Of a stretch of 64,000 nt of DNA, positions 53,960 through 63,396 are shown piece by piece. Each line of letters opens with the position of its first letter. Position 1 is the first letter of the stretch. The position numbers were made by a program, and so were the translations under genes. Source of the DNA: Nostoc sp. 106C (GTDB lineage Bacteria > Cyanobacteriota > Cyanobacteriia > Cyanobacteriales > Nostocaceae); NCBI RefSeq assembly GCF_002154725.1, contig NZ_MTAW01000089.1, positions 124,001 through 188,000 of the forward strand, in the 5' to 3' direction. The notes below the pieces were generated by a model, which was given only the letters and a program-made list of their open reading frames with translations, ran no database searches and had not been told where the DNA came from.

Positions 53960-55222
53960 TTACTTTAAACGGTATAGGATTTCACCTGCTTTTGGTACAA
54001 GCAAAATGCCTTCATCCTCCCGGTTAGCCCATTCTGCTGGTTTAATGGTAGCCGGATCACGATAGCTTAAGTTATGAGCAGCACAGCGTTTAGGAGAAAT
54101 ACCAGTCGCTAGAGTCACCCGAATCCGTGCTTGTTCCCCATTTATAGGCTCAAAAGTGCCCATACCTTTCAAGTGGGTACTATGGGCTAGCACTCCCGCA
54201 GGATAACCTTGAAATTTATCCCACTGTTTAAGAAAGTAATCTCGCACATGATAACCAACTTGGGCTAGTATTTCACCGTGTGTATAGCTAAACTCCGTAA
54301 TGTGAGGCGCATAGATAATTACCTCACCACCATCGGCTACTACTGGCTCTAGCTTGTACATTCCTTTAGCCGCAGTCCAAATGTCATCATACATTTCGGG
54401 CATTACCGAAAGCACTTGTTGAAAAGGCCGATCTACATATTTAATATGCACTTTAGCTGATAATTTCGCAGCGTCTTCCCAAGCTGCTTCTGGTTTATCT
54501 ATATAAAGTCCCGCTAACTGATTTGTTCCTGGTGCGACTACCATCGCTAGACACAACTTGGGAGTAGGAATTAGGCTAGCAGCGCGGTTAATTAAGCGGC
54601 GAACTGGCGTGATTCCTGGTGTACCAATAATTTCGTAACAGGTAATTAAAGCACCTAACCAGTGCGATAGATTAATTACTTCCTGACCGCTAATACCGGG
54701 GAAAAAATATTTATTTCCACCAGAGAAACCGACAACTTCGTGGGGAAAAACTGGGCCGCAAATAATTATTAAATCGTATTCATTTACCAGCTTATTAACA
54801 CGCACATCAACTTCTTGATGCAGCATTCCCCCGCTAATTTCTGCTATCTCATCTGCGGAAATTACGCCACAAGAAATAAAGGTATCTGGTAGATGCCAAA
54901 GGTGGTTAAAAATTTGCACATTTTTAAATGTAGTCTCTCGCTCTTCTGGAGTTAATCCAACTAAGCGATTAATTTGTGATTCACTCATCGGATTATGTGT
55001 ACCCAGAGCGATTAAAAAATCAAGTGCAGCTACCCTCTTACTCAACTCTTGATGGAGCAATCGAAACATTTGCGGAATGGGAGCAGTGCGGGTTCCATCG
55101 GGAATTAATACGAGGATGCGCTGTCCATTGAACTGAGGATCTGCTAAAGCTTGATGAACTAGTTCGGACACTTGTTCATCCGAAAGTGCTGCGTTATCTA
55201 CGGCTAGTGAATACATTCTCAA
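53960..55222 (-). CDS. LarA-family nickel-pincer hydroxyacid racemase/epimerase; candidate D-gluconate/D-mannonate 2-epimerase
   Basis: A 420-residue cytosolic enzyme of the lactate racemase (LarA, DUF2088) superfamily. The nickel-pincer residues are present: PDGTRTAP at 41-48; H76 in GTHNPM; H161 and K171 in PHEVVGFSGGNKYFFPG; H187 in LSHW. The spacing H-10-K-16-H equals that in Lactiplantibacillus LarA (H174, K184, H200, from memory). Known: LarA homologues act on several 2-hydroxyacids, and a D-gluconate 2-epimerase has been described among them. Context decides the guess here: it overlaps the UxuB-type SDR by ATGA and lies with uxaC and gluconokinase. larB, larC and larE, needed for the cofactor, are not in this window. 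Confidence 0.75.
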   Translation of the reverse strand: MRMYSLAVDNAALSDEQVSELVHQALADPQFNGQRILVLIPDGTRTAPIPQMFRLLHQELSKRVAALDFLIALGTHNPMSESQINRLVGLTPEERETTFKNVQIFNHLWHLPDTFISCGVISADEIAEISGGMLHQEVDVRVNKLVNEYDLIIICGPVFPHEVVGFSGGNKYFFPGISGQEVINLSHWLGALITCYEIIGTPGITPVRRLINRAASLIPTPKLCLAMVVAPGTNQLAGLYIDKPEAAWEDAAKLSAKVHIKYVDRPFQQVLSVMPEMYDDIWTAAKGMYKLEPVVADGGEVIIYAPHITEFSYTHGEILAQVGYHVRDYFLKQWDKFQGYPAGVLAHSTHLKGMGTFEPINGEQARIRVTLATGISPKRCAAHNLSYRDPATIKPAEWANREDEGILLVPKAGEILYRLK

Positions 55223-56073
55223 ACTCCACTGTAGATACTAAAGCCACCGTCTATAGGTACCACTACCCCGTTGATAAAACTAGAACCAGAACTGCACAAC
55301 CAAATCAAAGTGCTGAGTAATTCCTCCGGTTCGCCAAAACGTCCAGCGGGGGTGTGGTCAATAATTTTTTGTCCGCGATCGCTTAAACTACCATCAGGAT
55401 TTAACAGTAAATCTCGATTTTGCTCCCCAATAAAAAAACCTGGGGCGATCGCATTAACTCGCAGTCCGGCTCCATACTTTTGGGCGAGTTCTACAGCTAG
55501 CCAACGAGTAAAGTTATCGATCGCCGCTTTCGCAGCTGAGTAGCCAACCACTCGGCTGATGACACGGATAGCAGACATCGAAGAAATATTAACAATACAA
55601 CCTTGGGGTTGATTTCTTTCAACCATTGCTTGACCAAAAACTTGGCTGGGTAGTAGAGTCCCGACCAGATTTAGATCAACCACTTGCGCAAAAGCTGCGT
55701 GTGGCATATCAAAAAAAGTCGCATCAGGAGTAATTGTGGCAGCCGGAATATTGCCACCAGCGGCGTTTATCAGGATATCTATCTGACCCCAATGGTTTAA
55801 AATAGTGTCTCTGGCTATTTCTAATTGAGAGCGATCGCTAACATCTGCCAGCACAGCCGTACTTTCTCCACCGTTGGCAGTAATATCAGATACTACCGCT
55901 TCTGCCCGTCTTTCATTGCGACCGAGAACAGCTACTCGCGCTCCAGCATAGGCTAGACCCCGTGCCATAGCCCCACCAAGCACACCAGAACCACCTGTAA
56001 CTACTGCTACCTGGTCTTTGAGGCTAAAAAGTTTATGTAAAACTAGATCTGGTTTATTCAGTAAGTCTGTCAT
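55219..56073 (-). CDS. uxuB: Fructuronate reductase (D-mannonate oxidoreductase), SDR-type UxuB
   Basis: A 284-residue classical SDR. Cofactor loop TGGSGVLGG (26-34), INAAGGN (102-108), catalytic S164/S165, Y178 and K182 (GYSAAKAAIDN). Subfamily-specific stretches recall Bacillus UxuB/YjmF: FLNLVGTLLPSQVFG-like (residues about 133-148), IAPGFFIGEQNR, HTPAGRFGEPEEL, and the ending DGGFSIYSGV. It would interconvert D-fructuronate and D-mannonate with NADH. It overlaps the LarA-family gene by 4 nt and follows uxaC by 156 nt, so the three probably form one transcript. Confidence 0.8.
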   Translation of the reverse strand: MTDLLNKPDLVLHKLFSLKDQVAVVTGGSGVLGGAMARGLAYAGARVAVLGRNERRAEAVVSDITANGGESTAVLADVSDRSQLEIARDTILNHWGQIDILINAAGGNIPAATITPDATFFDMPHAAFAQVVDLNLVGTLLPSQVFGQAMVERNQPQGCIVNISSMSAIRVISRVVGYSAAKAAIDNFTRWLAVELAQKYGAGLRVNAIAPGFFIGEQNRDLLLNPDGSLSDRGQKIIDHTPAGRFGEPEELLSTLIWLCSSGSSFINGVVVPIDGGFSIYSGV

Positions 56074-56229
56074 TGATAGTTCCTTTGGGACTGACGCAAA
56101 AACTCTCTCAAACTCTTTCTTCGCGTTCTTCGCATCTTTGCGGTTCGTTTTTCTTTATCTCGCGCATAGACGCGGAGCGGCTTCTCGAAGAGTAGGCGCA
56201 AAGGCGCAAAGAAGAACGCAAGAGTACAA

Positions 56230-57651
56230 TTAATCTAATTTGTAAGCAATTTTGGCGAGGTCGTAAGCCAGTGCCTGAGCCATTTCGTAGCCTTCCTCTT
56301 CTTCTACTAACCCACGCACTACCAATCCAGCCAACCAGTTACAAGCTACACGTCGCCAAACAGTATGGCGGGCGGGAATAGAAACAAAAGCCCGTGTATC
56401 ATCATTAAACCCAGCAGTATTGTAAAGACCGGCAGTTTCCATCACCCGATCGAAGTAGCGCTCCATACCATTCACGCTGTCGTGAAACCACCAAGGCGGC
56501 CCGAGTAATACAGCAGGATAATGACCAGCTAGCGGCGCTAATTCCCGGCTGTAAGTGCTTTCATCCATGCCAAACAGAATGAGGTGAAAATTCTTGTGAT
56601 TACCGTAGGCTGATAACAACGGACGTAGATTTTGAGTCCACTCTAGTTGCAATGGGATATCAGCACCTTTATCAGACCCAAAGCGATCAAAGATTGCAGG
56701 GTTATGGTTGCGTGTAACACCACAATGCATTTGCATGACTAAGCCATCTTCCACACTCATCCGCGCCATTTCCACGAACATATGACCAGTGAATTGCTGT
56801 GCATCAAATGAATTGAGCTTGCCGATTAATGCTCTAGCAAAGATAGCCTCTGCTTCTTGGTCAGAAAGCTGTGTGGTATAAGGTGTAGCTGCACTGTGGT
56901 CGGTAGCAGTCGCACCCATCTTTTTAAAGTAAGCTCGACGTTCTTCTAAAACCTGGATAAAAGTAGTGTAATTGCTGATTTCTCTATCTACAGTGCTTTC
57001 CAACTTGGCAAGATTTTCGCGCCAACTTGGAGTGTCTAGGTTAACTACTGCATCTGGTCGAAAGGTAGGTCTAATTTGAGTCCAACCTTCTTGGTGTAAG
57101 GATTGATGGTGTTCAAGGTTATCACTAGCTGCATCGGTGGTACAAAGCACTTCAATGTGAAAGCGTTTAAATAGCGCACGCGGTGAGAACTCAGGTAAGG
57201 CTAACTGTTCTGCCAAGTAATCGTAGATATGTCCAGCATTGCGAGAAGTTAAAGGCTCATCCACTCCAAAGACGTTAGTTAGTTCGTCTTTCAACCACAA
57301 CCCAGAGGGAGTGCCCCGAAATAAGTAAAAATGGTCGGCGAAAAGCTGCCAGATTTTGCGGTGGTCGGTTTCTACTGGCGAACCATCAGTAGTAGGGATA
57401 CCGAGAGATTCCAGAGGTATACCCCGACTATAGAGCAGCCGGAAAATGTAGTGATCGGGGATAATCAATAATTCAGTCGGCGAACCAAAACGGGCTGCTG
57501 GATTAGCTAACAAAGCTGGGTCAACGTGACCGTGTGGGCAAACCAGAGGTAGAGAGGAAATGCTGTCAAAAAATTGACGGGCTAGTTGTCTTTGAAATGG
57601 TTCTGGAGCAAAACAGCGATCGCGAGATAAACTCCATGTTTTAGTTAACAT
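56230..57651 (-). CDS. uxaC: Glucuronate isomerase
   Basis: A 473-residue metal-dependent isomerase of the amidohydrolase fold, converting D-glucuronate to D-fructuronate (and galacturonate to tagaturonate). The metal-binding HxH is H40/H42 in CPHGHVDP near the N-terminus. QMHCGVTRNHNP in the middle and GFNDDTRAFVSIPARHTVWRR (written in two parts: GFNDDTRAFVSI, PARHTVWRR) near the end are family landmarks. Length is typical. It lies 32 nt downstream of the NDH-2 gene and upstream of uxuB on the same strand, inside the LacI-linked sugar-acid cluster. Confidence 0.93.
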   Translation of the reverse strand: MLTKTWSLSRDRCFAPEPFQRQLARQFFDSISSLPLVCPHGHVDPALLANPAARFGSPTELLIIPDHYIFRLLYSRGIPLESLGIPTTDGSPVETDHRKIWQLFADHFYLFRGTPSGLWLKDELTNVFGVDEPLTSRNAGHIYDYLAEQLALPEFSPRALFKRFHIEVLCTTDAASDNLEHHQSLHQEGWTQIRPTFRPDAVVNLDTPSWRENLAKLESTVDREISNYTTFIQVLEERRAYFKKMGATATDHSAATPYTTQLSDQEAEAIFARALIGKLNSFDAQQFTGHMFVEMARMSVEDGLVMQMHCGVTRNHNPAIFDRFGSDKGADIPLQLEWTQNLRPLLSAYGNHKNFHLILFGMDESTYSRELAPLAGHYPAVLLGPPWWFHDSVNGMERYFDRVMETAGLYNTAGFNDDTRAFVSIPARHTVWRRVACNWLAGLVVRGLVEEEEGYEMAQALAYDLAKIAYKLD

Positions 57652-57683
57652 CTTTTTGTCTGGTTAAAGTTAGTTAATGATGC

Positions 57684-58985
57684 TCACTCACTTGGCTGCA
57701 ATTCTTGACCTGTAATCAATCTGGCTCCCCGTTTGCGAGTGACGTAGTTCGATGCCCACTGGAGCATCACGATTAATTTATTGTCAAACTCAATTAAGAA
57801 ATAGATATGAATCAATAGCCAAAATAGCCATGCAACAAAACCTGTAAGTTTGATAAAACCTAAATCTACAACGGCGGAATTGTGGCCAATCATTGCTAAA
57901 CTGCCGCGGTCGATGTAAGAAAATTGTGGCAAAGTTTTATTGTGTAGCCGCTGTTTAATTAATGCTGCTACATATTCTCCTTCCTGCTTTGCTACAGGTG
58001 CAACACCAGGTAGAGGCTTACCATTTTGATGTGAAAAATTTGCTAAGTCACCAATTACAAAAATATTCGGATAGCCTTTAATACTCAAGTCAGGTTCAAC
58101 AATGACTCTCCCGACGCGATCGCATTCTACACCTGTGCGTTCTGCTAATACTTTCCCTATTGGCGAAGCTTGAACGCCTGCTGCCCATAATATAGTTTTT
58201 GAGGCAATCTCTTTCACCTCATCCTCTTGTTTGATGGTAACAAGATCGTTTTCAATATTTGTTACCAAAGTTTTTGTTTGCACCTCCACACCAAATCGTC
58301 GCAGAGATGCTGCTGCTGCTTGTGATAATTCTGGTACGTAAGGTGGCAGGATGCGATCCATACCTTCAAGAAGTAAGATTTTCGTTTCTGATGTGTCGAT
58401 ATTGCGGAAATCTTGTTTGAGGGTTTCGTAGGCTAAATCTGCAAGTGCGCCTGCTAACTCGACTCCGGTAGGGCCACCACCAACAATGATAAAAGTTAAC
58501 CAAGCACGGCGTTTTTCTAGATCTGTTTCTTTTTCTGCTGCTTCAAATGCCATAAAAATTCGGCGGCGCATTTCGATAGCATCTTCTACAGTTTTTAAAC
58601 CAGGGGCAAATTCTTCCCATTGGTCTTTACCAAAATAGGAATGCTTTACACCTGTGGCAATAATTAATGTGTCATAGGGTATTGCTTGATCGCCTACGAT
58701 CGCTTTTTGTGCTTGGGGATCGATATCAGTAACTTCACCCAGCATAACTTTTGTATTTTTGCTTTTACTAAGTACTGCTCGCAAAGGTGAAGAAATATCA
58801 GCAGGTGATAGCGTACCTGTAGCAACCTGGTATAAGAGGGGTTGAAAGAGGTGAAAGTTACGTTTATCAATGAGAGTAACGTTAACATTAGCTTTGGAGA
58901 GAGAATGTGCAGTGTACAATCCGCCAAAGCCACCACCAACAATCACAACTTTATGAGATGAATTATTCTCAATTGAACCTATCAT
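57684..58985 (-). CDS. ndh: Type II NADH dehydrogenase (NDH-2)
   Basis: A 433-residue FAD-dependent, non-proton-pumping NADH:quinone oxidoreductase. FAD-binding GGGFGGLYTA (17-26) and NADH-binding GGGPTGVELAGAL (about 169-181), plus the FAD contact GDLANF and PGVAPVAKQEG. The hydrophobic C-terminus (LTGFVAWLFWLLIHIYFLIEF) attaches it to the membrane. It sits between lacI and uxaC with 32 nt to uxaC. In this setting it could balance NADH during sugar-acid use, but it may be an unrelated gene caught in the operon. Confidence 0.88.
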   Translation of the reverse strand: MIGSIENNSSHKVVIVGGGFGGLYTAHSLSKANVNVTLIDKRNFHLFQPLLYQVATGTLSPADISSPLRAVLSKSKNTKVMLGEVTDIDPQAQKAIVGDQAIPYDTLIIATGVKHSYFGKDQWEEFAPGLKTVEDAIEMRRRIFMAFEAAEKETDLEKRRAWLTFIIVGGGPTGVELAGALADLAYETLKQDFRNIDTSETKILLLEGMDRILPPYVPELSQAAAASLRRFGVEVQTKTLVTNIENDLVTIKQEDEVKEIASKTILWAAGVQASPIGKVLAERTGVECDRVGRVIVEPDLSIKGYPNIFVIGDLANFSHQNGKPLPGVAPVAKQEGEYVAALIKQRLHNKTLPQFSYIDRGSLAMIGHNSAVVDLGFIKLTGFVAWLFWLLIHIYFLIEFDNKLIVMLQWASNYVTRKRGARLITGQELQPSE

Positions 58986-59113
58986 AAGACATATTTTTGG
59001 ATGTTATAGGTGTGAAATTGATACGGAAAAGGCTGTTTTAAAATGTTGAATCACAAATTTTTAAGTATATAAAATTTGATTTATTATTAACAGTGGTTTT
59101 TACTTAATTAAAA

Positions 59114-60151
59114 TCATTTACGGCGATTGTTTACTACCGCACTACTACCCCGCTTTAACAAATAAGGAGATAAAACGCAGTTTTTTACAGTTTTTTCCTG
59201 TAATAAATCGAGTAACATTTGCATTGCAGAACGACCAATTTCTAACATTGGCTGGCGAACTGTGGTGAGTGGAGGGGTGAGGTAACCTCCCAGAGCAACA
59301 CCATCAAATCCCACTATGCTTAAGTCTTGCGGAACCGAAATTCCTAGTTCTTGACAGGCTAAAACAGCACCTACCGCTACCATATCGTTGTAACAAAAGA
59401 TGCCTGTCACTCCAGTTGCAACTAGTTTAGGTAGCATCTGTTGACCTGTAAAAACATCGCTTGTTCTGACATTATATTCATCACTAATTGCTACCCAATA
59501 AGCCTTTTGGGGTAAACCTGCTTCACTCAAAGCTTTTTGATATCCTTCTAAACGCTGCTGATTTGACCTGCTGCGATCGCTTACACCCAGGTATCCTATA
59601 GAAGTGTGTCCCAAACTGACTAGATGTTCTACGGCTAATCTAGCGCCTAAACAGTCGTCTACTGACACTGAGTGAAATATTTCCGGTGGATCTTGAGTTT
59701 GGCTATGAATAAATACTGTTGGTACAGCAATTTGTCCTAGCTGTTTTGTATCCTGTTTACTAATGCGTGAATCAGCCACTAGAATACCGTCCACTCTCCG
59801 GCGATGAAAATTATCAATAGCTGCTATTTCCAGATCGACATCTCGGTGTGAAGTACTCAACAACACACTTAAACCTGATGTTCTGGCTATCTGTTCTATT
59901 CCCTCTACTACTTCCGAAAAAAAGGGATCTGCTATTGAAGTTACTACTACCCCAATAGTATTAGTACGTTGAGTTTGTAAACTTTGCGCAATACTATTAG
60001 GAACATAACCCATCTCCCGCGCCAGCTGCTTAATTTCCTCTCTTACCTTAGGGCTAATTAGAGTACTATCTCGTAAAGCGCGTGAAACCGTGGTGTGAGA
60101 AACTCCTGCTTTTCGAGCAATATCTTCTATTGAGATTTTTCGTTTACTCAT
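59114..60151 (-). CDS. LacI-family transcriptional regulator of the sugar-acid cluster
   Basis: A 345-residue LacI/GalR repressor. HTH IEDIARKAGVSHTTVSRAL at about 8-26, hinge helix PNSIAQSLQTQRTNTIGVV, then a periplasmic-binding-protein-like sensor domain (ADPFFSEVVEGIEQIA; DGILVADSRI; FCYNDMVAVGAVLA; IVGFDGVALGGYLTPPLTTV). The ligand is unknown; a sugar acid such as gluconate or mannonate is likely from the neighbours. A perfect LacI-type palindrome lies 20 nt upstream of its start, between it and the divergent gluconokinase gene, so autoregulation is likely. Confidence 0.9.
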   Translation of the reverse strand: MSKRKISIEDIARKAGVSHTTVSRALRDSTLISPKVREEIKQLAREMGYVPNSIAQSLQTQRTNTIGVVVTSIADPFFSEVVEGIEQIARTSGLSVLLSTSHRDVDLEIAAIDNFHRRRVDGILVADSRISKQDTKQLGQIAVPTVFIHSQTQDPPEIFHSVSVDDCLGARLAVEHLVSLGHTSIGYLGVSDRSRSNQQRLEGYQKALSEAGLPQKAYWVAISDEYNVRTSDVFTGQQMLPKLVATGVTGIFCYNDMVAVGAVLACQELGISVPQDLSIVGFDGVALGGYLTPPLTTVRQPMLEIGRSAMQMLLDLLQEKTVKNCVLSPYLLKRGSSAVVNNRRK

Positions 60152-60170
60152 TTGTTATCTTACTTTATTT

Positions 60171-60186
60171 ATGCACACGTGTGCAT
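60171..60186. promoter_or_regulatory. Predicted LacI-family operator (lacI-gntK divergent promoter)
   Basis: Perfect 16-bp palindrome atgcacacgtgtgcat with a central CG, the form usual for LacI/GalR operators. It is 20 bp upstream of the regulator and 40 bp upstream of gluconokinase. The same 16 bp recur at 61286-61301. Confidence 0.75.
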
Positions 60187-60225
60187 TATAATATCAATTA
60201 TTAGAAAAATTGAGCCACTTGTCAA

Positions 60226-60711
60226 ATGATTATTCTCGTAATGGGTGTTTCTGGATCTGGCAAAACCACCGTAGGAAAATTGCTAGCAGATTCGTTAGGC
60301 TGGGGATTTAGCGACGCTGATGCTTTCCACTCGCCGGAGAATGTCGAAAAAATGCGGCAAGGTATTCCCTTGAGTGAGGCTGATAGGAAGCCTTGGTTAC
60401 AAGATTTACAAACAGCTATTAAACATTGGCTACAAGAAAATAAAAATGTGGTGCTAGCGTGTTCAGCGTTAAAAGACAGTTATCGCCAATTTCTGGTAGT
60501 GGATAGCAATCGTGTTAAGCTAGTCTACCTTAAAGGATCTTACCAGTTGATTCAAAAACGGTTGCAAGAGCGTCAGAATCACTATATGAGCGATCAACTC
60601 CTTACCAGCCAGTTTGAGACTCTTGAAGAACCATTAGAAACCATATATATAGATATTGCAGAGCCTCCTCAGGCAATTGTCCAGAACATTAGAACAATTT
60701 TAGGGATTTAA
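60226..60711 (+). CDS. gntK: Gluconokinase
   Basis: A 161-residue P-loop kinase (GntK/shikimate-kinase-like family) that phosphorylates D-gluconate to 6-phosphogluconate. Walker A is GVSGSGKTT (7-15); DADAFHSPENVEKMRQGIPLSEADRKPWL (in two parts: DADAFHSPENVEKM, IPLSEADRKPWL) is the gluconate-binding signature; CSALKDSYR and the YLKGS lid region follow. Length is typical. It is transcribed divergently from lacI, across the shared operator, and is the likely exit step of the sugar-acid cluster into the pentose phosphate pathway. Confidence 0.93.
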   Translation: MIILVMGVSGSGKTTVGKLLADSLGWGFSDADAFHSPENVEKMRQGIPLSEADRKPWLQDLQTAIKHWLQENKNVVLACSALKDSYRQFLVVDSNRVKLVYLKGSYQLIQKRLQERQNHYMSDQLLTSQFETLEEPLETIYIDIAEPPQAIVQNIRTILGI

Positions 60712-60836: not shown

Positions 60837-61181
60837 ATGTTTCTCAGATTAGCGCAACAACATCGAGAATTCGTCAAAGACTTGGTAATGAACCTGCAAG
60901 TCTTGGCAATTGTACTCGATCGAAGGGGTTATCCAGCCTCTTGTTATACCTGCGGCGACCAAATGAACAGCGGTTCATTTATGGTTAGCTTGGGAGAAAA
61001 TCACCTGATTCGGTTTTTAGTATCTGATTACGGTATTACATGGACAGAAATGAAGGATGACCACGAATTCATGAAGTTAGAAGGTGCAGAAGCGATAAAT
61101 CAACTACAAGAGTTGGCTAATAGCATCAAGTATCTGAGTACTGATAATCAAATTGACAAAGTCAATAATATTTGTTGTTAG
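60837..61181 (+). CDS. Small conserved cyanobacterial protein (DUF1815-like)
   Basis: A 114-residue soluble protein with an excellent aaaggaggg site. Its opening MFLRLAQQHREFVKDLVMNL and the core CYTCGDQMNSGSFMVSLGEN, then IRFLVSDYGITWTEM, resemble DUF1815, a cyanobacteria-restricted family of unknown function. A CxxC pair (C57, C60) and a terminal CC are visible. No domain of known function. It lies 125 nt after gntK but is likely a separate gene, because a strong ribosome-binding site and a HIP1 motif lie between them. Confidence 0.65.
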   Translation: MFLRLAQQHREFVKDLVMNLQVLAIVLDRRGYPASCYTCGDQMNSGSFMVSLGENHLIRFLVSDYGITWTEMKDDHEFMKLEGAEAINQLQELANSIKYLSTDNQIDKVNNICC

Positions 61182-61497
61182 CTTCATGTAGATACATTGC
61201 TCTTCTATTTGATTTGTACAATTAGATGTGAAAAAACTTAATAGATAATTTTGCACAGATGTGTAAGGATTAAAAATAACAGTTTATGCACACGTGTGCA
61301 TAAATAAAGTTAGAAAAATCATTTCACAAATCAATTTCATAAACTTGCTTTATTTCAGCTAGCAATACAACTTTAAAAGTAGCGATCGAAGGAATATTCG
61401 TTCGTAGGCAGGACTTTAGCTTTGAATTTTTAAGCACGTTTTGTGCTGGCTACAAATTGATAAAAGTCAAAACAAATAGATATATAAAAAGAATTTT
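61182..61497. other. Intergenic region upstream of the desaturase-fold gene, about 315 bp
   Basis: No gene. It contains the second copy of the LacI-type operator (61283-61304) and AT-rich sequence likely to hold the promoter of the gene at 61498. Confidence 0.5.
61283..61304. promoter_or_regulatory. Second predicted LacI-family operator
   Basis: Perfect 22-bp palindrome whose central 16 bp are identical to the lacI-gntK operator, extended by ttt and aaa on the two sides. It is about 193 bp upstream of the desaturase-fold gene. Confidence 0.7.
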
Positions 61498-62580
61498 ATG
61501 GAACCCAAGTTTACACATAGAGATTACAGTTTAGTTGGTTCGGAATCGGTGAAAGCTGTTGAGAAAGGTCTGTCATGCGTGCAGTGGTATAGAAGCCCAG
61601 TTCCGCGCCAGCAACTCAAAGAATTGATGAAGCGTAGCGATATGCCAGCACTGCGAGATACTGTGTTGTGGTTCGCACTCATTATTACATCTGGTGCGAT
61701 CGCCTATATTAGTTGGGGTACTTGGTTCGCAATCCCAGCATTTTTAGTTTATGGCTGGCTGTATGCAGGAGCAGCCGACTCGCGTTGGCATGAGTGCAGT
61801 CATGGTACAGCGTTCAAAACTAAATGGCTCAACGATTTGGTTTATCAAATTGCATCGTTTATGGTGCTGCGTGAGTCTACATTATGGCGCTGGAGTCACT
61901 CTCGACACCATACAGATACCCTGATCGTTGGTCGCGATCCCGAAATCGCCTCACCGCGTCCGCCAAGCTTCATTAATATAGGGCTGAATCTCCTCAATCT
62001 CAAGACTGGATTGAAGGAACTGCGTCAGATTGTGCGTCACTCATTTGGTTTGCTGTCGGCTGAAGAGAAGAGTTACGTTCCCGAACGCGAACACAACAAC
62101 GTCATTCTAACTGCACGGATTGATCTGGCGATTTTCATGGGCGTCATAGCTTGGTCAATTGCGATCGCTAGTTGGATGCCACTAATGTTTATTGGTCTGC
62201 CTTCATTCTACGGTGCTTCGTTACACGTATTTTTTGGCATGACACAACACGCTGGATTAGCCGAAGACGTGCAGGATCACCGTCTGAATTCGCGCACCGT
62301 GTACATGAATCCTGTATTGCGCTTTTTGTATTGGAATATGAATTATCATGTCGAGCATCATATGTTCCCAATGGTGCCATACCATGCGCTTCCGTCACTG
62401 CATGAAGTTATCAAGCATGATGTTCCGCCTGCATATTCAAGCTGCTGGGAAGCTTATAAGGAAATTATTCCCGCCTTGATTCAGCAGCGCCAAGACCCGA
62501 ATTACTTTGTGGTGCGAAAACTACCAGTAACAGAAACAACAAAGATAAAAGCGATCGCAACCCCACAATCCGCCGTTTAA
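61498..62580 (+). CDS. Fatty acid desaturase-superfamily membrane di-iron enzyme (MocD/DesA-like)
   Basis: A 360-residue integral membrane protein. Histidine boxes are HECSH (98-102), HSRHH (134-138) and HVEHH (in NMNYHVEHHMFP). Hydrophobic helices lie around 57-90 and 205-245. The N-terminal MEPKFTHRDYSLVG segment and ADSRWHECSHGTAF recall the group containing rhizobial MocD-type oxygenases as well as acyl desaturases, so lipid desaturation should not be assumed. The upstream palindrome identical to the sugar-acid operator suggests control by the LacI regulator (inference). Substrate unknown. Confidence 0.75.
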   Translation: MEPKFTHRDYSLVGSESVKAVEKGLSCVQWYRSPVPRQQLKELMKRSDMPALRDTVLWFALIITSGAIAYISWGTWFAIPAFLVYGWLYAGAADSRWHECSHGTAFKTKWLNDLVYQIASFMVLRESTLWRWSHSRHHTDTLIVGRDPEIASPRPPSFINIGLNLLNLKTGLKELRQIVRHSFGLLSAEEKSYVPEREHNNVILTARIDLAIFMGVIAWSIAIASWMPLMFIGLPSFYGASLHVFFGMTQHAGLAEDVQDHRLNSRTVYMNPVLRFLYWNMNYHVEHHMFPMVPYHALPSLHEVIKHDVPPAYSSCWEAYKEIIPALIQQRQDPNYFVVRKLPVTETTKIKAIATPQSAV

Positions 62581-62639
62581 CCTTCTGTTAGGCTGCGCGA
62601 TCGCAGAGGCATACTAGTTGAGGATAACTCAGCCTGGTG

Positions 62640-62849
62640 GAACTTGTGTTCTCAATGAAAGAACTTGTGTTCTGAACCAAAAAACTTGTGTTCTCAATGA
62701 AAGAACTTATGTTCTGAACCAAAGCACTTGTGTTCTCAACGAAGGAACTTATGTTCTGAACCAAAGCACTTGTGTTCTCAACGAAGGAACTTGTGTTCTG
62801 AACCAAAGCACTTGTGTTCTCAACGAAGGAACTTGTGTTCTCAACGAAA
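62640..62849. repeat. 21-bp tandem repeat array D (10 units)
   Basis: Ten consecutive 21-bp units, starting every 21 bp from 62640. Two forms alternate: gaacttgtgttctcaacgaag-like and gaacttgtgttctgaaccaaa-like. Each unit contains an agaac-type inverted repeat (gaac ... gttc). One plus-strand frame reads TCVLNER TCVLNQK and so on. It ends 20 bp before the next gene. Confidence 0.9.
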
Positions 62850-62868
62850 GAACGTTAATTGAATTATT

Positions 62869-63396
62869 ATGCGTAAACTCAAGTATCATGTTGCCTGTAC
62901 TGTAGATGGCTTTATCGCCCACAAAGACCACACAATCGAAGGATTTATCCCAGAGGGCGACCATGTAACCGACTATTTAGAATCGCTCCAGAATGATTAT
63001 GATATCGTCTTGATGGGACGTAAAACATACGAGTTTGGATTTCAGTTTGGTGTAACTAATCCCTATCCTTTGATGAAACAGTATGTGCTGTCACGCACTA
63101 TGGAAACCAGCCCCGATCCAAATGTAGAGCTAGTTTCAGAGAATATCATAGACTTTGTAAGAGAACTGAAAACAGGAACAGGTAAGGATATTTATCTCTG
63201 TGGGGGAGCATATTTAGCAACTACACTTTTAACAGAAAATTTGATTAATGAAATCATCCTCAAGGTCAATCCGGTAGTTTTTGGCTCAGGTATTCCATTG
63301 TTTTCTGAAGCCATTAAGCAGACTGATCTGGAACTCATCGACAGCAAAATTTACAAAACTGGCGTCATTTTACTTACTTATAGAGTGAAACATTGA
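62869..63396 (+). CDS. Dihydrofolate reductase-family protein (RibD C-terminal domain type)
   Basis: A 175-residue NADPH-dependent reductase of the DHFR/RibD_C superfamily. YHVACTVDGFIA (6-17), DIVLMGRKTYEFGF, QYVLSRTM, IYLCGGAYLATTLL and VNPVVFGSGIPLF are the expected strand-loop motifs. It is a stand-alone reductase domain without the RibD deaminase, as in many proteins of unknown substrate. The ATG at 62869 directly follows repeat array D. Confidence 0.85.
   Translation: MRKLKYHVACTVDGFIAHKDHTIEGFIPEGDHVTDYLESLQNDYDIVLMGRKTYEFGFQFGVTNPYPLMKQYVLSRTMETSPDPNVELVSENIIDFVRELKTGTGKDIYLCGGAYLATTLLTENLINEIILKVNPVVFGSGIPLFSEAIKQTDLELIDSKIYKTGVILLTYRVKH

Follow-up and report, generated by a model that had tools for sequence, protein, structure and literature searches.

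A hrm locus in Nostoc, with HrmA as a probable GntE-type nickel-pincer epimerase between inositol and 6-phosphogluconate

We analysed a 64,000-nucleotide window of Nostoc sp. 106C (contig NZ_MTAW01000089.1, positions 124,001 to 188,000) and in it a run of sugar-acid genes that ends in a homologue of LarA. A reading made from the sequence alone had placed uxaC, a UxuB-type short-chain dehydrogenase/reductase (SDR) and a LarA homologue consecutively on one strand, with a type II NADH dehydrogenase (NDH-2) and a LacI regulator ahead of them and gntK divergent. This layout is borne out by the coordinates, and the families by profile searches:

53960-55222, minus strand: hrmA, LarA-family nickel-pincer nucleotide (NPN) protein, putative D-mannonate/D-gluconate 2-epimerase (profiles, residues, tree, structure)
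55219-56073, minus strand: hrmU, SDR-type D-mannonate oxidoreductase (fructuronate reductase; NCBIfam PRK08277 'D-mannonate oxidoreductase', 395 bits against a cut-off of 281)
56230-57651, minus strand: hrmI, glucuronate isomerase UxaC (496.6 bits, cut-off 387)
57684-58985, minus strand: NDH-2, between hrmR and hrmI (Pfam)
59114-60151, minus strand: hrmR, LacI-family regulator (Pfam)
60172-60185, no strand: palindrome TGCACACGTGTGCA in the hrmR/hrmK gap, putative HrmR operator (pattern search)
60226-60711, plus strand: hrmK, gluconokinase of the GntK/IdnK type (160 bits, cut-off 114)

The hrmA product matches Lar_N (PF09861) with 80.6 bits in the Pfam profile search. At the hrmU/hrmA junction the overlap is TTGA, not ATGA as had been claimed, and the start codon of hrmA is TTG. 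An alternative ATG lies at residue 3, just past the SDR stop; Met is found at that column in 11 of the 22 aligned rows, and the remaining 11 begin downstream of it.

A 1997 paper reportedly introduced hrmUA as a hormogonium-regulating locus that responds to plant extract, and the locus is associated with the way in which plants keep symbiotic Nostoc from producing motile filaments. Judged by its gene order, the cluster is the hrm (hormogonium-regulating) locus of symbiotic Nostoc, an identity that lay outside the sequence-only reading, as did the unlinked myo-inositol oxygenase (MIOX) gene with the same operator-like site. The names hrmE, hrmK, hrmR, hrmI, hrmU and hrmA follow the legend of Fig 6 in PMC5987646 (2018), a paper that gives the function of hrmA as unknown. 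The order MIOX, DUF1815, GntK, LacI, UxaC, SDR, LarA homologue (LarAH) is found in Nostoc punctiforme NIES-2108 (L077) and in a Peltigera cyanobiont (L063), and in the named hrm loci the LarA homologue following hrmU is 90% identical to the HrmA studied here. As the named loci share the hrm order, the gene after hrmU is the LarA homologue, and from gene order and name we infer that it is hrmA of N. punctiforme ATCC 29133, the locus compared being that of strain NIES-2108. Here hrmE is not linked to hrmK; MIOX sits on another contig (C125), with the same palindrome upstream. In the open-access literature, covered largely as titles, abstract openings and passages, we found nothing that names HrmA as LarA, GntE or an epimerase.

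A homologue search gave 76 loci, which by title divide into 26 from cyanobacteria and 50 from other sources. The order GntK-LacI-UxaC-SDR-LarAH is kept in 22 of the 26; three of the other four end at a contig end (L020, L021, L024) and one is rearranged (L071). The nearest named relative is the locus of Nostoc sp. T09 (L002, 92%), which is also the only one of the 26 with NDH-2 between hrmR and hrmI, as here. A DUF1815 gene lies beside hrmK in 20/26 loci, and between hrmK and MIOX wherever MIOX is present. The rearranged locus, from Nostoc carneum NIES-2107 (L071 9103-9810), has its LarA homologue behind an IS630-type transposase gene, with no other hrm genes in 21 kb. In another genome (G125, L086 1498-3376) fragments of LacI, UxaC, SDR and LarAH follow one another in order, in what looks like a hrm locus undergoing decay, and a full-length MIOX is kept apart from these remnants.

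By sequence, the closest solved structure to HrmA is 4NAR, with an E-value of 6e-65, and the next is a lactate racemase at 1.5e-8. According to passages of PMC7583248, 4NAR is GntE2 of Thermotoga maritima, for which D-mannonate to D-gluconate epimerase activity was shown in 2020. A profile built from 22 sequences obtains 303 bits on 4NAR, 67 on the best lactate racemase and 52 on the malate racemase Mar2, i.e. GntE2 scores far above both kinds of racemase. The AlphaFold2 model of HrmA has a pLDDT (predicted local distance difference test) of 90.9 and its first fold match is again 4NAR, with a template modelling (TM) score of 0.89. At E 0.001 there are 18 further matches, with TM-scores of 0.56-0.78, and all 19 PDB matches are LarA-family entries. 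In a tree of 27 rows, the 23 rows of the HrmA/GntE type, GntE2 among them, stand apart from four annotated LarA rows with a support of 100/100; malate racemases and GntE1 were left out of this tree, which carries long-branch warnings. In the comparison with lactate racemases that had been suggested, the LarA homologue thus groups with GntE2. On these sequence and model comparisons, the closest characterised relative of HrmA among solved structures is GntE2, nearer than the lactate or malate racemases.

The residues agree with this placement. The NPN-binding R45, K171 and H187 and the catalytic D42, H76, H161 and K286 do not vary among the 22 aligned sequences, HrmA included, as the sequence-only reading had it for the nickel-pincer positions. 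HrmA D42, R45, H161, K171, H187 and K286 match D38, R41, H154, K164, H180 and K287 of GntE2, and H76 is aligned with the His of its GTH. LarA groups 18-20 are described, in passages of PMC7583248, by a Glu-Val/Ser loop after the catalytic His, a Trp in helix 11 and Ala/Val in the alpha-14 region. HrmA carries the Glu-Val loop and the Trp of these groups (E162, V163, W282), and in the alpha-14 region one position was mapped, N348 of GntE2 to G343 of HrmA.

The cofactor genes larB, larC and larE, whose presence had been proposed as a check, are all in the genome, each above its curated cut-off and on contigs other than that of hrmA. No match to UxuA was found in the 8.66-Mb genome by a search that matched in 5 of 14 control genomes. 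Only two MR/MLE proteins were found, one like DgcA/Ala-Glu epimerase (best score 225.6 bits with a cut-off of 400; 48.6 bits on the ManD model, cut-off 550) and one MenC (481.4 bits, cut-off 259), and as they look DgcA-like and MenC, there is no ManD. The canonical mannonate dehydratase route was set aside, neither UxuA nor ManD being matched genome-wide in searches of which kdgK and kdgA were not part. In the 76 related loci E. coli UxuA has no match at E 1e-3, and E. coli KdgK has weak matches in three.

We consider it highly probable that the cluster represents hrm in a Nostoc-like cyanobacterium and that HrmA is a GntE-type NPN C2 epimerase within an HrmR-regulated flow from inositol to 6-phosphogluconate. 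MIOX (hrmE, on the other contig here) would convert myo-inositol to D-glucuronate, HrmI would convert this to D-fructuronate, and HrmU would convert D-fructuronate to D-mannonate. HrmA would then invert C2 of D-mannonate to give D-gluconate, and HrmK would phosphorylate it to 6-phosphogluconate, which may enter the oxidative pentose phosphate or the Entner-Doudoroff route. The MIOX and gluconokinase reactions are effectively one-way, therefore the steps between them, which are reversible, should proceed in the direction from inositol to 6-phosphogluconate. A GntE-type HrmA would supply the step missing between HrmU and HrmK, and the locus could then be read as a complete pathway from inositol and glucuronate to the pentose phosphates, open to direct test. 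It would also be, for some cyanobacteria, a LarA-family client of the pincer cofactor; the puzzle of a cofactor without LarA stays for the others, because only 3/386 sampled genomes of the phylum have an HrmA relative that is close, and one of these three is a fragment.

The last part of this route, from mannonate through gluconate to 6-phosphogluconate, had been read from the sequence alone, and the likeness to GntE2, the cofactor genes and the lack of a UxuA or ManD match support it. It had also been called not the textbook pathway, but the same route had been proposed for T. maritima via GntE2 in 2012 (Rodionova, as relayed in passages of PMC7583248, PMC6978723 and PMC3750489), and since the activity of GntE2 was shown in 2020 (PMC7583248) the route itself is not new. 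HrmA as a GntE-type pincer enzyme, the complete inositol-fed hrm pathway and the operator-like palindrome look new.

Under this reading HrmR, acting on TGCACACGTGTGCA, would regulate hrmR-hrmI-hrmU-hrmA, hrmK and the oxygenase jointly. The palindrome is found at four places in the genome, all exact in a search that allowed one mismatch: in the hrmK/hrmR gap at 60172, upstream of a MocD-like gene at 61287 and twice before MIOX on contig C125. From the base composition of the window, 0.02 exact sites and 0.84 sites with up to one mismatch are expected genome-wide, and the reversed pattern has no match in the genome at up to one mismatch. Among relatives, all 22 of the hrmK/hrmR gaps contain the palindrome (at most one mismatch), and an exact copy lies about 57-217 bases before each of 16 MIOX genes (16/16). 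The 50 non-cyanobacterial loci, 766,782 bases together, have three sites. A Thermoflexia locus (L055; SDR, LarAH, gnd) has two sites within one mismatch of TGCACACGTGTGCA. HrmR controls hrmR and hrmE according to passages of PMC5987646, and from the sequence comparisons we infer that TGCACACGTGTGCA is the HrmR operator. On one strand of contig C125 lie MIOX, two CUT2-type sugar-binding proteins, an ATPase, a permease and an OprB porin.

Co-occurrence was counted in 217 genomes of the host's family, Nostocaceae, uncorrected for relatedness among the genomes. UxaC is present in 45 and HrmA in 47, and all 45 UxaC genomes carry HrmA matches; the two HrmA-only genomes (G125, G398) have C-terminal HrmA fragments only. 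In five of the 47 the HrmA gene is split or fragmentary, G503 holding fragments of both UxaC and HrmA, and G483 and G512 having HrmA in two pieces. MIOX matches occur in 57 genomes, including 44 of the 45 with UxaC, the exception being G471, which is 72% complete. MIOX matches without HrmA were found in 11 genomes, five of them full-length and six partial or weak. In a phylum sample of 386 genomes HrmA matches are found in four, one being a 28% relative and one a fragment, and UxaC in two. In passages of PMC10999742 hrmUA is called common throughout Nostocales; the count here is 47 of 217 genomes in the family.

Outside the cyanobacteria, the genes within 3 kb on the same strand were counted for the 50 loci: UxuB-type SDR in 37, gnd in 25, UxaC in 10, UxaE in nine and a PfkB kinase in seven. 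The gnd, UxaE and PfkB queries were taken from L042, which is itself among the 50, and some loci end at contig ends; profiles confirm the gnd and UxaE of L042 and the gnd of L046 and L052. A plasmid of Catenovulum adriaticum has uxaC, a TRAP transporter, gntK, the LarA homologue, larC and larB in a single run, and a plasmid of Saccharobesus litoralis (L100 6482-8251) encodes a GntK-LarA fusion of 589 residues, with larB, tagaturonate epimerase and gnd behind it. The hosts are gammaproteobacteria and the LarA parts are about 30% identical to HrmA. The accessible passages of PMC7953866, on the Saccharobesus litoralis strain, contain no mention of this fusion. A contig labelled Chloroflexi (L023 10001-11260) has a LarAH with 76% identity and, by tblastn, no partner gene within 10 kb.

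Several points weigh against the proposed role of HrmA. The long branches weaken the tree, HrmA and GntE2 are only 34-36% identical, and the best NCBIfam model, NF052594 (putative hexonate epimerase), gives 194.8 bits, far below its cut-off of 500 bits. Three residues of the substrate region of GntE2 differ in HrmA (S156 to V163, G286 to A285, N348 to G343). The comparison of characterised relatives covered solved structures, GntE1 and LarAH15 being outside it, and in passages of PMC7583248 the native substrate of GntE1 is doubted by its authors. The presence of larB, larC and larE is not specific, because most cyanobacteria make the pincer cofactor and lack LarA (passages of PMC11796402). Eight family genomes have a full-length MIOX and no full HrmA (five without a match, three with fragments), and GntK, searched with HrmK, is found within 3 kb in none of the 50 non-cyanobacterial loci. 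Within the window, two palindrome sites at up to two mismatches compare with 0.21 expected, and 3 of 100 shuffles equal this. Finally, the pair of binding proteins encoded behind MIOX fits ribose-type models, the best PDB match being 4rwe, a 'sugar-binding transport protein', with 4irx, which we take to be an inositol-binding protein, far below. The Nostoc counterpart of this transporter has been published as a fructose transporter, and an inositol transporter beside MIOX was set aside on these grounds.

Other roles for HrmA can be weighed on the same evidence. With the last two steps swapped, HrmK would phosphorylate D-mannonate and HrmA would epimerise 6-phosphomannonate to 6-phosphogluconate. 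We regard this as improbable, as among solved structures GntE2 comes nearest to HrmA, and GntE1, GntE2 and LarAH15 use unphosphorylated D-mannonate (passages of PMC7583248 and PMC11770544). A lactate, malate or other small hydroxyacid racemase, present here by chance, is hardly credible. HrmA does belong to the LarA superfamily, but it scores 195 bits on the hexonate model against 90, 68 and 67 bits on the malate and lactate racemase models, it is separated from annotated LarA in the tree, and it co-occurs with UxaC. We reject a lactate or malate racemase on the NCBIfam, structure-sequence, profile, tree and fold results.

HrmA could instead epimerise another aldonate or aldarate, e.g. altronate formed from galacturonate by UxaC and the SDR, which would make this a galacturonate locus. 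In its favour, a galacturonate-like compound binds HrmR in the model of PMC5987646, and PMC7583248 doubts mannonate as the native substrate of group 19 (both from passages). UxaE is near 9/50 non-cyanobacterial relatives, so galacturonate may enter there. UxaE leads back to fructuronate and mannonate by an established pathway, however, which would return the flow to the same intermediates; gnd beside the LarA homologue points to 6-phosphogluconate, and the MIOX that shares the palindrome yields glucuronate. We therefore hold a galacturonate locus to be quite improbable, and keep to HrmA as a mannonate/gluconate epimerase. PMC5987646 passes on a hypothesis in which the locus produces an inhibitory metabolite and is not catabolic, and notes a likeness to the uronate metabolism of heterotrophs. 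The two views can be compatible if an intermediate of the catabolic route binds HrmR, and the route may be linked to hormogonium repression.

Beyond hrmK three further features were found in the window:

60837-61181: DUF1815 gene adjoining hrmK
61287-61300, no strand: second TGCACACGTGTGCA site, in surroundings that resemble the MIOX upstream region (pattern search, sequence comparison)
61498-62580, plus strand: fatty-acid-desaturase-family oxygenase, MocD-like judging by the genes around two plasmid homologues; may belong to the same regulon

The second site ends 197 bases before the desaturase-family gene. The stretch upstream of this gene resembles the MIOX upstream region of relatives, therefore the gene may have taken over the old promoter of hrmE, and by this sequence likeness the site may be what is left of an hrmE that was displaced. 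The same likeness weakens the idea that the MocD-like gene is controlled independently. The protein has only weak NCBIfam desaturase matches and no PDB match at E 0.001. Its plasmid homologues (57%) comprise 291 records, and two annotated ones precede a 2Fe-2S protein and a ferredoxin or FAD-dependent reductase, one of them with MocE and Gfo/Idh/MocA. The neighbourhoods in these 2 of 291 records, together with what we take to be the function of MocD, suggest a MocD-like oxygenase, which may demethylate O-methyl-inositol. A short repeated-peptide open reading frame at 62618-62905 is probably no gene but a tandem DNA repeat.

A wider reading, which we offer tentatively and think doubtful, is that hrm is a nickel-dependent catabolism of a host-supplied cyclitol, with uronates as the ligand of HrmR, and that pentose-phosphate flow, not a special inhibitor, returns hormogonia to nitrogen-fixing filaments. 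The MocD-like oxygenase, where present, would demethylate (O-methyl-)inositol before MIOX opens the ring and HrmI, HrmU, HrmA and HrmK carry the product on to 6-phosphogluconate. If so, the symbiosis would depend on nickel and on larB, larC and larE.

Among known systems, the hrm locus of N. punctiforme and lichen Nostoc has the genes and the order of the NIES-2108 and Peltigera loci. Compared with it, here hrmE is on another contig with a transporter and a porin, the MocD-like gene occupies its place and NDH-2 is inserted. The plasmids of Catenovulum adriaticum and Saccharobesus litoralis have a gluconokinase adjoining or fused to the LarA homologue, with larB and either larC or gnd. In the galacturonate route of Lactobacillus suebicus mannonate likewise reaches 6-phosphogluconate without a dehydratase, but there the kinase acts first, the epimerase acts on the phosphate and the genes have not been identified (passages of PMC6978723). 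The UxaR regulon of T. maritima (GntE2 = LarAH20, GntK, Gnd, UxaE, UxaD), as far as the sources describe it, likewise has a LarA-family mannonate/gluconate 2-epimerase between fructuronate reductase and gluconokinase and also feeds 6-phosphogluconate, with its gnd in the same regulon. That system is fed by pectin and galacturonate via UxaE, has a GntR-type regulator and also a kdgA-kdgK-uxuB-uxuA operon, whereas in the Nostoc locus MIOX shares the operator-like site, the regulator is of the LacI type, there is no uxuA and the organism is cyanobacterial.

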